A stretch of DNA of 11,751 nt from Syntrophaceae bacterium (GTDB taxonomy: Bacteria > Desulfobacterota > SM23-61): positions 1 to 11,751 of the forward strand of contig PMCE01000123.1 in assembly GCA_003154025.1 (NCBI GenBank), read 5' to 3'. The notes under the pieces are model-generated. The model did not search any database. It was not told the origin of the DNA and saw only the letters and a list, made by a program, of their open reading frames with translations. This document shows positions 5,262 to 7,842 of the stretch, one piece after another. A program made the translations under genes and the position numbers. Within the stretch, counting starts at the first letter, position 1. Each line of letters begins with the position of its first letter.

Positions 5262-5306
5262 TGAAAAAACGAAGAGGGGTGAGCTTTTCACTCACCCCTC
5301 TTCGTT
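5262..5306 (-). terminator. Intrinsic terminator of the 5667-5359 gene
   Basis: Perfect 16-bp inverted repeat (arms 5268-5283 and 5291-5306; arm AACGAAGAGGGGTGAG, 7-nt loop). On the minus strand the stem runs into six T residues (5269-5264, partly shared with the arm). On the plus strand the bases after the stem are not T-rich, so it is directional. It sits 52 bases after the stop of the minus-strand zinc-ribbon gene. Confidence 0.88.
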
Positions 5307-5358: not shown

Positions 5359-5667
5359 TTAGGCCTTTATATCCGGAGTCTTCCTGGCCGGCAGGGAGCC
5401 GGATTGAAAGTACTTCTTCAGGAGCTGCATCACCTGCTCTTCTCCCTCGGGGATCTGAAGATCCGCATCCTGGCTGAGTCGGTGGAGAAGGATGACGGGG
5501 TCCAGAATCTCCCCGCACATGACGCAATGCCATCCGTAGAAGATACTGTTCACGTCGTAAAACTTCTCAAAGATCATCCGGCCGCCGCAGCGTTGGCAGT
5601 TTACCGCATCGGTTCGTTTTTCGTTTCTCTTTTCAACGGTGTTTGCTGATGACATGGTATTTCTCAA
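5359..5667 (-). CDS. Small zinc-ribbon protein (CQRC / CVMC)
   Basis: 102 aa from a TTG start. It has CQRC at residues 24-27 and CVMC at 48-51, each knuckle followed by Gly (CGGRM and CGEIL), spaced like a zinc ribbon with a two-strand insert (EKFYDVNSIFYGWH). The tail after residue 53 is a short amphipathic helix region (DPVILLHRL, EEQVMQLLKKYF). Small RCGG-xM...CVxCGE(I/L)xD proteins are frequent orphans in Desulfobacterota; possible nucleic-acid or protein-binding role, unproven. Start choice: TTG 5667 lies 4 nt after AAGGAGGT (5678-5671), whereas the in-frame ATG at 5655 is 16 nt away. The TTG fits better but the ATG (98 aa) remains possible. A strong terminator follows the gene. Confidence 0.72.
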   Translation of the reverse strand: MRNTMSSANTVEKRNEKRTDAVNCQRCGGRMIFEKFYDVNSIFYGWHCVMCGEILDPVILLHRLSQDADLQIPEGEEQVMQLLKKYFQSGSLPARKTPDIKA

Positions 5668-5965
5668 AGGACCTCCTTGTTTTTATTCTAATCCCCCAAA
5701 CCCATCCTCATGAAGGACGAGGGGGCGACAAAGCGCCCTCCCATTTTTGAATATTCATACTAAAATACCGAGAATGCTTGGAGGAATAAATGGGGTGAAT
5801 CCCGTATTTTGCGAGCAGAAATCCTGTATTTCTAAGGGGTTTACCGCGGCTCCGCTGCACCCTTCAAAAATTCAGAAATCTTAACTCGAAGACTCTCCCT
5901 CATGGTTCCGAGTCAGACCGGACCCTGTCTCAAAGGGCGGTCAGGCTGCTTCTAAGCCCTCTTCA
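5668..5965. other. Structured intergenic region upstream of the 5667 gene
   Basis: No gene was recognised. Several inverted repeats are visible. ATTTCT / AGAAAT (5828-5833 and 5874-5879) enclose AAGGG / CCCTT and a GCG-GCTC-CGC tip. GACCG..CCCT / AGGG.CGGTC lies at 5916-5942. GACTC / GAGTC is at 5891-5895 and 5910-5914. GGGGGCG / CGCCCTC lies at 5721-5740, followed on the plus strand by CCATTTTT. This may be a long leader of the minus-strand gene or a dispersed repeat; no promoter was identified inside it. Confidence 0.4.
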
Positions 5966-6010
5966 GAAAAAACAAAAGAGGAGTTGGGCTTCCATCCCAA
6001 CCCCTCTTCC
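5966..6010 (-). terminator. Intrinsic terminator of the candidate small RNA
   Basis: On the minus strand AAGAGGGGTTGGG (6008-5996) pairs with CCCAACTCCTCTT (5988-5976), 13 bp with one G.U, loop ATGGAAG. The tail is TTGTTTTTTC. On the plus strand the same stem has an A.C mismatch and no T-tract, so it acts on minus-strand transcripts. Confidence 0.8.
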
Positions 6011-6100
6011 GGCGTGCGACGATGACCCCTAAAAACTTAACAACGATGCCTTTAAAATATTTCCGAGAACTTAGCCCATTAGCTCACGGAAAGATTTAAT
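5966..6100 (-). ncRNA. Candidate small RNA of about 130 nt
   Basis: Predicted from its own promoter (6134-6106) and intrinsic terminator (6008-5966) on the minus strand, with no open frame of note between. The 5' hairpin spans 6092-6060: TTTCCG / CGGAAA, a U.U mismatch, then GAGC / GUUC with one G.U pair, and an 11-nt loop UAAUGGGCUAA. The middle section (about 6050-6017) carries two related words, GGCAUCGUUG and GGUCAUCGUCG, probably single-stranded. The terminator stem also contains a G.U pair. In both stems the wobble is legal only if the minus strand is the RNA, which supports the direction. I do not recognise it as 6S, 4.5S/SRP, tmRNA, RNase P or a known riboswitch. The alternative is a terminated leader of the zinc-ribbon gene 300 bases downstream. 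Confidence 0.6.
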
Positions 6101-6105
6101 AGAGA

Positions 6106-6134
6106 ATAATAATCGATCGATATTTTTTTGTCAA
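6106..6134 (-). promoter_or_regulatory. Near-consensus sigma70 promoter of the candidate small RNA
   Basis: On the minus strand: TTGACA (6134-6129, perfect -35), a 17-bp spacer, then TATTAT (6111-6106, five of six for the -10). The predicted transcription start is near 6100. The -35 sits inside an A/T-rich inverted repeat ATATTTTT / AAAAATAT (6120-6127 and 6136-6143), and the spacer contains the palindrome ATCGATCGAT (6112-6121). These could be operator sites. Confidence 0.7.
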
Positions 6135-6288
6135 GAAAAATATTTGGCTAAATTTAAGTAAATTTGCGGCCTTTTTATTTGCCCATGGGCAGGTTATTCT
6201 CTAGAATGAAAGGGCGCGACCAGACGGAATTCGTGTACAGGTTGAAATGCGCCAACCACGCCGGACCTGAAAACCGGAGGATAGAACA

Positions 6289-6636
6289 ATGGGGACCGAG
6301 GATCGTCCTTGGGGAAGCTATACGATTCTGGAGGAGAGGGAAAGCTATAAAGTCAAGAGAATCGATGTCCTGCCGCACAGGAGATTGAGCTATCAGCGCC
6401 ATGAAAAGCGGTCGGAGCACTGGGTCGTGGTTGAGGGAGAAGCCGTCGTGACCCTGGAAGGGAAGGAGATCAGGCTTTCCCCGGGGCATTCCGTAGATAT
6501 TCCCCGGATGGCGGCCCACCGGATCCTGAACCCCGGCCGGGTTCCTCTGATCTTCATCGAAATTCAAAAGGGCGAATACTTTGGAGAAGACGATATCCTG
6601 AGGTTGGAAGACGACTTCGGCCGTACGGGAGGGTGA
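6289..6636 (+). CDS. Stand-alone cupin, phosphomannose isomerase type II family
   Basis: 115 aa, single-domain cupin matching the C-terminal domain of bifunctional mannose-1-phosphate guanylyltransferase/mannose-6-phosphate isomerase (ManC/AlgA type). Motifs: RPWGSY (6-11), YKVKRIDVLP (20-29), the metal-binding set Q36, H38, E43-H44 in LSYQRHEKRSEHW, NPG (81-83), and FGEDDILRLEDDFGR near the end. Known full-length enzymes interconvert mannose-6-phosphate and fructose-6-phosphate for GDP-mannose synthesis. A lone cupin could be an isomerase, an epimerase or a sugar-binding protein, and no guanylyltransferase is present here. Start: ATG 6289 with GGAGG at 6276-6280, spacing 8. Only three bases separate its stop from the next gene, indicating one operon and probably coupled translation. 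Confidence 0.88.
   Translation: MGTEDRPWGSYTILEERESYKVKRIDVLPHRRLSYQRHEKRSEHWVVVEGEAVVTLEGKEIRLSPGHSVDIPRMAAHRILNPGRVPLIFIEIQKGEYFGEDDILRLEDDFGRTGG
6628..6633 (+). promoter_or_regulatory. Shine-Dalgarno GGAGGG supporting a TTG start at 6640
   Basis: GGAGGG lies at the 3' end of the cupin coding sequence, 6 nt before TTG 6640. It supports the unusual start codon and translational coupling, since the cupin stop (6634-6636) lies between them. Confidence 0.7.
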
Positions 6637-6639
6637 TTT

Positions 6640-7842
6640 TTGTCCGAGGAAAAGCCTTTGGTCATCGGAAGCAACTACTGGCCCGGGGAAAAGGCCATGT
6701 ACTGGTGGGGGGATTTCGAGCTTGCCCCCGTTAAGAGGGACTTTTCCCTCATGGCGGAGTACCGCTTTGATCTGGCCCGAATCTTCTTGCTGTGGGAAGA
6801 TTTTCAGCCGGAGGTGAAACGGGTTTCGGTCAAGGCCCTGGAGGACCTGGTCCGGGTCGCAGATATCGCTCATGACCAGCGGATAAAAGTTTTGCCCGCC
6901 TTTTTCTGCGGTCACATGCTCGGGGTAAACTGGGTTCCTTCCTGGCTGATGGAGGCAGGAAAGGGAGAAGGAATATATCCCCTGTTCTCCCAGGGCATGA
7001 TCCGGAAGGGGAGACTGCGGAACATGTATTCGGACCGGGAAGTATGGAAAGCCCAGAAACTCCTGATCCATGAAATCACCAATGCCTTGCGGGCGCATCC
7101 GGCCGTCTGGGGCTGGGACCTGGGCCACAGACTTTCCCTCCTGGCAAACCCGCCTTCCAGGGATTCAGCAAGGGCCTGGATGGAAGAGATGGTGACCGAA
7201 CTTAAACGGTGGAATTCCTCGCTGCCCATAATCGTGGGGTTGGGCCAGGAGGACCTGGAAGATGCCCGGATCCCGGGTCCCGGGGATTTAGCCCCATACG
7301 GTGATTTTTTCTCCCTTCAGGTCGACCCGGGCCGGGCGAAATGGGCGGATGGCCCGACGGATGAGAAAGCCCCGCTATTTCTGGGATTAGTGGCTCAATG
7401 GTTGGGGGGGAAGGAAGTGCTGGTGGGCGACCTTGGAGTTCCCACGGAGCCCGGGCTTCCTCGGTTGACCTCAGGCGACCGGCAAAGACTCGGGGGAAAC
7501 CGCCTGGTGGAAGAGGACGAAGCCGAAGACTTCTTCCAGAAGAGCCTTGACCTGCTGAAGAAATATGGAATCAGAGGCGCTCTGGCTCGGTCCTTTGGAG
7601 ATTATGACTCTTCCTTATGGGATAAGCCGCCGCTGGACAATCGAGTCGCGGAGCGTTTCTGCGGCCTCTTCCGGAGGGATGGATCGGCCAAACCGGCAGC
7701 CCGTCTGATCCGGGAGTATCCCCGGGAAAGGGCCCCGCGGGAGATCTCCTGGGACTGGGTGGATGTCCGGCCGGAAGAATACTACGAGAACCCTCGGGGA
7801 CAACTCCCGCGTCTTTATCGAAGATTCAAAGATCAATTATAG
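6640..7842 (+). CDS. Clan GH-A-like (GH5/COG3934-type) protein, catalytic Glu residues apparently lost
   Basis: 400 aa, no signal peptide, so probably cytoplasmic. The N-terminal half reads as a TIM-barrel glycosidase of the endo-mannanase/GH5 sort: NYWPGEKAMYWW (12-23), a helix-strand unit YRFDLARIFLLWEDFQP (41-57), LPAFFCGHMLGVNWVPSWL (85-103), then AVWGWDLGHR (155-164) and VLVGDLGVPT (260-269). In active relatives the fourth-strand motif ends in Asn-Glu (WDLGNE) and the seventh-strand motif is GEFG. Here these are Gly-His-Arg and Gly-Asp-Leu-Gly, so the acid/base Glu is replaced and the nucleophile Glu is Asp264. It is therefore likely non-hydrolytic or altered in chemistry. It starts at TTG 6640 and shares an operon with the cupin, which suggests a carbohydrate-related role. 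Family placement is by motif; the exact GH family is uncertain. Confidence 0.72.
   Translation: MSEEKPLVIGSNYWPGEKAMYWWGDFELAPVKRDFSLMAEYRFDLARIFLLWEDFQPEVKRVSVKALEDLVRVADIAHDQRIKVLPAFFCGHMLGVNWVPSWLMEAGKGEGIYPLFSQGMIRKGRLRNMYSDREVWKAQKLLIHEITNALRAHPAVWGWDLGHRLSLLANPPSRDSARAWMEEMVTELKRWNSSLPIIVGLGQEDLEDARIPGPGDLAPYGDFFSLQVDPGRAKWADGPTDEKAPLFLGLVAQWLGGKEVLVGDLGVPTEPGLPRLTSGDRQRLGGNRLVEEDEAEDFFQKSLDLLKKYGIRGALARSFGDYDSSLWDKPPLDNRVAERFCGLFRRDGSAKPAARLIREYPRERAPREISWDWVDVRPEEYYENPRGQLPRLYRRFKDQL

Follow-up and report, generated by a model that had tools for sequence, protein, structure and literature searches.

The window analysed here, an 11,751-nt stretch of a Syntrophaceae bacterium contig, carries on the minus strand of a gap between divergent genes a promoter followed by an intrinsic terminator, and the occurrence of both parts as one unit is real and lies beyond chance. 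Based on this geometry a discrete, terminated RNA is probably made. For the further step, that the unit is a separate short minus-strand transcription unit with its own promoter and terminator rather than the leader of the zinc-ribbon-like gene behind it, we consider the chances to be even. The features discussed below are collected in Table 1.

Table 1. Features of the intergenic region and its flanking genes (window coordinates; L001 and L002 are the two syntenic loci described in the text)
Feature	Position	Strand	Basis
Zinc-ribbon-like gene (CxxC ... CxxC), downstream of the RNA	5359..5667	-	ORF; ATG probably at 5655
Operator/promoter-like block of the zinc-ribbon gene (AAATACAGGATTT ... 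AAAATACGGGATTCACCCCATTT ... TATTTT)	5762..5831	-	Conservation
Predicted RNA, ~130 nt	5966..6099	-	Spacing of promoter and terminator; folding (z = -2.9); start and end predicted
Intrinsic terminator hairpin, 16 pairs, then T tract to ~5966	5973..6011	-	Sequence and L002 homologue
5' hairpin of the candidate RNA (UUUCCG/CGGAAA + GAGCU/AGUUC)	6054..6098	-	Folding
Sigma70-type promoter TTGACA-N17-TATTAT	6106..6134	-	Consensus match
Divergent promoter-like site TTGCCC-N17-TAGAAT before the cupin gene	6179..6207	+	Sequence; also in L001 and L002
Cupin gene, mannose-6-phosphate isomerase C-terminal type	6289..6636	+	Pfam; NCBIfam matches all below cut-offs

Promoter, terminator and predicted RNA in the window

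The gap is flanked on the plus strand by the cupin gene and a GH-like gene, and on the minus strand by the zinc-ribbon-like gene and a gene of 171 aa. The zinc-ribbon-like protein gave no Pfam or NCBIfam match, and a search of viral contigs with the zinc-ribbon alignment gave no match. Metagenome sets contain zinc-ribbon proteins with an identity of 79-90%. The GH-like protein (400 aa, 6640-7842, plus strand) showed no Pfam match; it has 215 relatives in the protein database, some of them named endo-1,4-beta-mannosidase, and as a probe of the genome contigs it found no relative.

The original prediction had placed a TTGACA and a TATTAT at a distance of 17 bp on the minus strand, followed after about 90 nt of RNA by a 13-bp terminator stem with a T-rich tail, and all of this was confirmed. 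The promoter comprises 11 of the 12 consensus letters and is the only site in the whole window that reaches at least this value. The terminator stem is extended by three further outer pairs, two of them G.U, to a total of 16 pairs, which enclose a loop of 7 nt and are followed by the tail TTTTTTC; the full stem thereby holds three G.U pairs, compared to one in the 13-bp core. The distance from the -10 element to the terminator hairpin amounts to 94 nt. With a start about 7 nt past the -10 element, the hairpin would begin about 88 nt into the RNA. Folding of the predicted RNA resulted in -42.2 kcal/mol, a value that none of 200 shuffles equalled, and -24.7 kcal/mol of this energy come from the terminator alone.

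For the estimation of chance, the unit was defined as an 11/12 promoter with a terminator of at least 11 bp located 50-250 nt downstream, and dinucleotide shuffles were used. Such a unit appeared in none of 1000 shuffles of the 621-nt intergenic region and in none of 60 shuffles of the whole window. The single parts were rare as well, since among the 1000 intergenic shuffles the promoter was found in 6 and the terminator in 7.

The claims that no ORF of note lies inside the RNA and that it belongs to no recognised RNA family also held. According to the program-made ORF list, with shorter ORFs judged by eye, no ORF of at least 50 aa overlaps the candidate. The Rfam search that had been proposed as a check yielded 0 matches for the whole window at the gathering score; at E values up to 10, the region 5668-6288 yielded 8 sub-threshold matches, all below their gathering scores and none of them credible. 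Among the titles returned by a literature search, none was on small RNAs of this bacterial group.

Syntenic loci and conservation of the unit

Searching genome contigs with the alignment of the zinc-ribbon-like proteins gave ten loci and thereby access to eight related genomes, which are labelled Syntrophaceae, Deltaproteobacteria, Proteobacteria or Thermodesulfobacteriota. Searches at the level of family, order and class starting from genome G001 returned the same eight genomes each time, and of 395 genomes drawn from the phylum these eight alone gave matches at E <= 1e-35. Twelve relative loci were compared with the window, one of which (L008) comprises only 227 nt upstream. The cupin gene is divergently placed in two of the twelve, namely L001 (Syntrophaceae bacterium L.E.D.56) and L002 (Deltaproteobacteria bacterium SM23_61), so that the order divergent cupin gene, promoter, zinc-ribbon gene is common to the window and both loci. 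The cupin orthologues in G001 and G002 show 81% identity. A further orthologue in G004 (70%) was rejected due to its other context, beside an smpB-like gene and what by eye resembles a tmRNA. Behind the cupin gene, L001 holds an ORF that differs from the GH-like gene of the window. The zinc-ribbon gene is followed by the 171-aa gene in the same direction in the window and in L001; the contig of L002 ends soon after the zinc-ribbon gene.

In all three syntenic loci an 11/12 promoter TTGACA-17-TATTAT is directed at the zinc-ribbon gene and is faced by TTGCC(C/T)-17-TAGAAT before the cupin gene. L001 additionally shows a second TTGACA-17-CAGAAT that overlaps the first. A global alignment of the window and L001 leaves the promoters unaligned, with 38% identity there, and their presumed equivalence is based on the hexamers, the spacing and the gene order.

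The terminator has a homologue in L002, where the distance from the -10 element to the hairpin is 92 nt compared to 94 nt in the window. Of its 16 pairs in the window, 15 also form in L002; 11 of these are invariant, three are changed on one side and one is changed on both sides, while the 16th pair, G-C in the window, is broken (T/C) in L002. When the alignment was slid by 1-3 columns, 36.7-66.7% of the cells paired compared to 100% in the true register, and one of the six slid versions contained a double change. The covariation is drawn from two sequences and from a structure derived from the same two, 238 of 500 shuffles reach its value, and the support that it may give to the terminator is thin. 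For L001, no terminator-like site was observed on the promoter strand in 6560-7420.

The 5' hairpin showed a different picture and is not kept. In L002, four of its 11 pairs are broken and no double change is present, which gives no support to selection on this hairpin. The G.U pairs of both hairpins had been taken as a sign of selection on a minus-strand RNA. Both hairpins are indeed stronger on the minus than on the plus strand (-12.7 compared to -8.3 for the 5' hairpin and -24.7 compared to -17.0 for the terminator), and the L002 terminator is likewise stronger on its RNA strand (-20.2 compared to -10.2). The argument from the G.U pairs is weak alone and is strengthened by the bias of the L002 terminator.

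From the start to the terminator hairpin, the RNA body of the window and of L002 aligned at 55%, a value to which 27 of 500 shuffles were as good; the corresponding numbers were 97 of 500 for the window and L001 and 13 of 500 for L001 and L002. Compared to this, the spacer behind the terminator aligned at 60% between the window and L002, and none of 500 shuffles was as good. Between the window and either locus, the similarity of the RNA body thus comes close to the chance level, and it falls short of that of the sequence behind the terminator. The whole L002 RNA folds no better than its shuffles (z = -0.49). Altogether, no conserved RNA sequence or structure other than the terminator was found among the window, L001 and L002.

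Further copies were searched for as well. A first model calculated with RNAalifold paired the promoter with the body and was not used; the search model comprised promoter, body and terminator, with the terminator as its sole structure. In the eight related genomes it found the L002 locus, from which it had been made, and no second copy. Among the fetched loci it matched L001 weakly (17.3 bits, E = 0.42) via the promoter part. A DNA search of the eight genomes with the window RNA, run without a positive control, gave no match. With the L002 RNA and E values up to 1, the self match reached 1.8e-106, and the other 21 of the 22 matches listed were short, with E of at least 0.01.

Two observations concern other terminators of the region. 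Strong and nearly identical terminators (GAAGAGGGGTGAG...CTCACCCCTCTTCG) are located 3' of the zinc-ribbon gene in the window (5271-5303) and in L002 (6081-6114), and the L002 one has a 13-nt start in common with the terminator of the small RNA.

Between the terminator of the RNA and the zinc-ribbon gene lies a conserved block, of which 55 nt are 82% identical in L001 and 87% identical in L002. Its 23-letter motif, searched with up to 3 mismatches, gave 24 matches distributed over all eight genomes, compared to 0 for the reversed pattern as a control. The motif upstream of the zinc-ribbon gene is built of two parts, AAAATAC and, 22 nt further, AAAATACGGGATTYACCCCATTT; an upstream AATAC copy was present at 20 of 25 motif sites, the window included (genome sites L056-L079). 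From the 24 sites, ten ORFs downstream of the motif were chosen according to their length, and nine of them had Pfam matches. They include Fe/Mn superoxide dismutase-like, POR-type ferredoxin oxidoreductase, MscL, BamE-like, BON, cytochrome c554-like and anaerobic sulfatase maturase proteins. The two-part motif may be the operator of an undescribed stress or redox regulon. Furthermore, a site TGGCA-N6-TTGCA, which we take to be sigma54-like, is located within 200 nt upstream of the zinc-ribbon paralogue in six of the twelve compared loci (L004, L005, L006, L008, L009 and L032) and is absent from the other six. A response-regulator receiver gene is oriented towards this site in L004, and similar genes seem to face it in other loci (judged by eye).

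Separate RNA, leader or by-product

RNA polymerase would produce from this unit, probably constitutively, a non-coding RNA of about 130 nt with a terminator hairpin and a U tail at its 3' end, and this RNA would be a product separate from the leader of the zinc-ribbon gene. Since the flanking genes are divergent, no upstream gene needs the terminator. A possible but tentative alternative is that the RNA represents the leader of the zinc-ribbon/171-aa operon, with a distal constitutive promoter and a terminator that limits or regulates read-through (attenuation). Such an arrangement would agree with the direction of the promoter towards the zinc-ribbon gene in all three syntenic loci, with the co-directional 171-aa gene in the window and in L001, and with the finding that conservation covers the promoter but not the RNA body. 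It would also agree with L001, where the promoter is kept without a terminator-like site between it and the gene, and the transcript would thus run towards the zinc-ribbon gene; the terminator would have been lost there or would never have been present. However, a conserved promoter-like block that belongs to the zinc-ribbon gene itself follows the terminator, Rfam gave no riboswitch or leader family, and no ORF of at least 50 aa lies in the RNA. In addition, an antiterminator was sought in minimum-energy folds of the window and L002, in which the left terminator arm adds about 5 kcal/mol of pairing, and no strong one was found. Due to the separate promoter-like block and the missing strong antiterminator, a separate RNA is likelier than an attenuated leader, though not decisively.

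In another explanation, which fits the fast-evolving RNA body, transcription would diverge from the region of the cupin promoter, the terminator would insulate the zinc-ribbon promoter and the RNA would be an inert by-product. The back-to-back promoter pair in all three loci fits this explanation, as do the promoter hexamers and the terminator kept by the window and L002. On the other hand, three species have kept an 11/12 promoter, which hints at a use for the transcription, and L001 has no insulating terminator; an inert by-product is rather unlikely. The original interpretation is partly supported. This applies to the minus-strand unit of promoter and terminator, both ends of which lie at the same spacing in L002; a free-standing RNA is preferred over a leader on the grounds given above, and the missing terminator in L001 does not agree with it. 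That the candidate RNA is free-standing is, on balance, an even call.

Possible mode of action and relation to known systems

Intergenic sRNAs that act in trans and are transcribed from a promoter of their own up to a Rho-independent terminator are a general bacterial kind. The candidate resembles them in its sigma70-type promoter, its length of about 130 nt, its intrinsic terminator, its intergenic position and the lack of an ORF of at least 50 aa. It differs from them in that no conserved seed was seen and that it is a candidate from sequence alone, and in that Hfq was not found in any of the eight relatives (drafts of unstated completeness; 5 of 14 control genomes were positive). A separate RNA might act in trans by pairing with messages via its mostly unpaired middle and without Hfq, which is a default guess and correspondingly tentative. 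Pairing of the middle of the RNA with start regions, some with approximate starts, was tested for eight regions of the window and for two each of L001 and L002. None of the 12 results was significant, and even the best one, for the GH-like gene, had a shuffle count of 2 of 40.

With transcription attenuators and 5' leaders, the candidate has in common a promoter and a terminator before a co-directional gene and one relative without the terminator, whereas it differs from them by the lack of a strong antiterminator or known aptamer and by the separate conserved promoter-like block of the gene. A likeness to CsrA sponges of the CsrB/RsmZ type is given by the GGA in a hairpin loop. A small CsrA-binding RNA, with GGA in the terminator loop (AUGGA) and elsewhere, would be consistent with the 4 GGA in the window RNA compared to 2.0 expected and with the presence of csrA in G002. 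However, the GGA are few and their counts, taken over the whole RNA and not the loops alone, are not significant, as they are reached by fractions of 0.10, 0.06 and 0.13 of 2000 mononucleotide shuffles for the window, L001 and L002, respectively. Moreover, csrA was detected in only two of the eight genomes, G001 not being among them. A function as a CsrA sponge is very improbable.

The feature of the window can be described as a candidate orphan intergenic sRNA of an ordinary kind. A more far-reaching interpretation, which we regard as doubtful, would be a lineage-specific, Hfq-independent sRNA that retains its promoter, length and terminator and has a body that is free to change. If this holds true, selection would act on the production of a short terminated RNA within the pair of divergent promoters, or on transcription there as such, and not on a fixed sequence. 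If a discrete RNA is made at all, it would provide a small-RNA candidate in an uncultured group with Hfq not found in eight genomes, and a test case for RNAs that keep their start, length and end while their sequence drifts.
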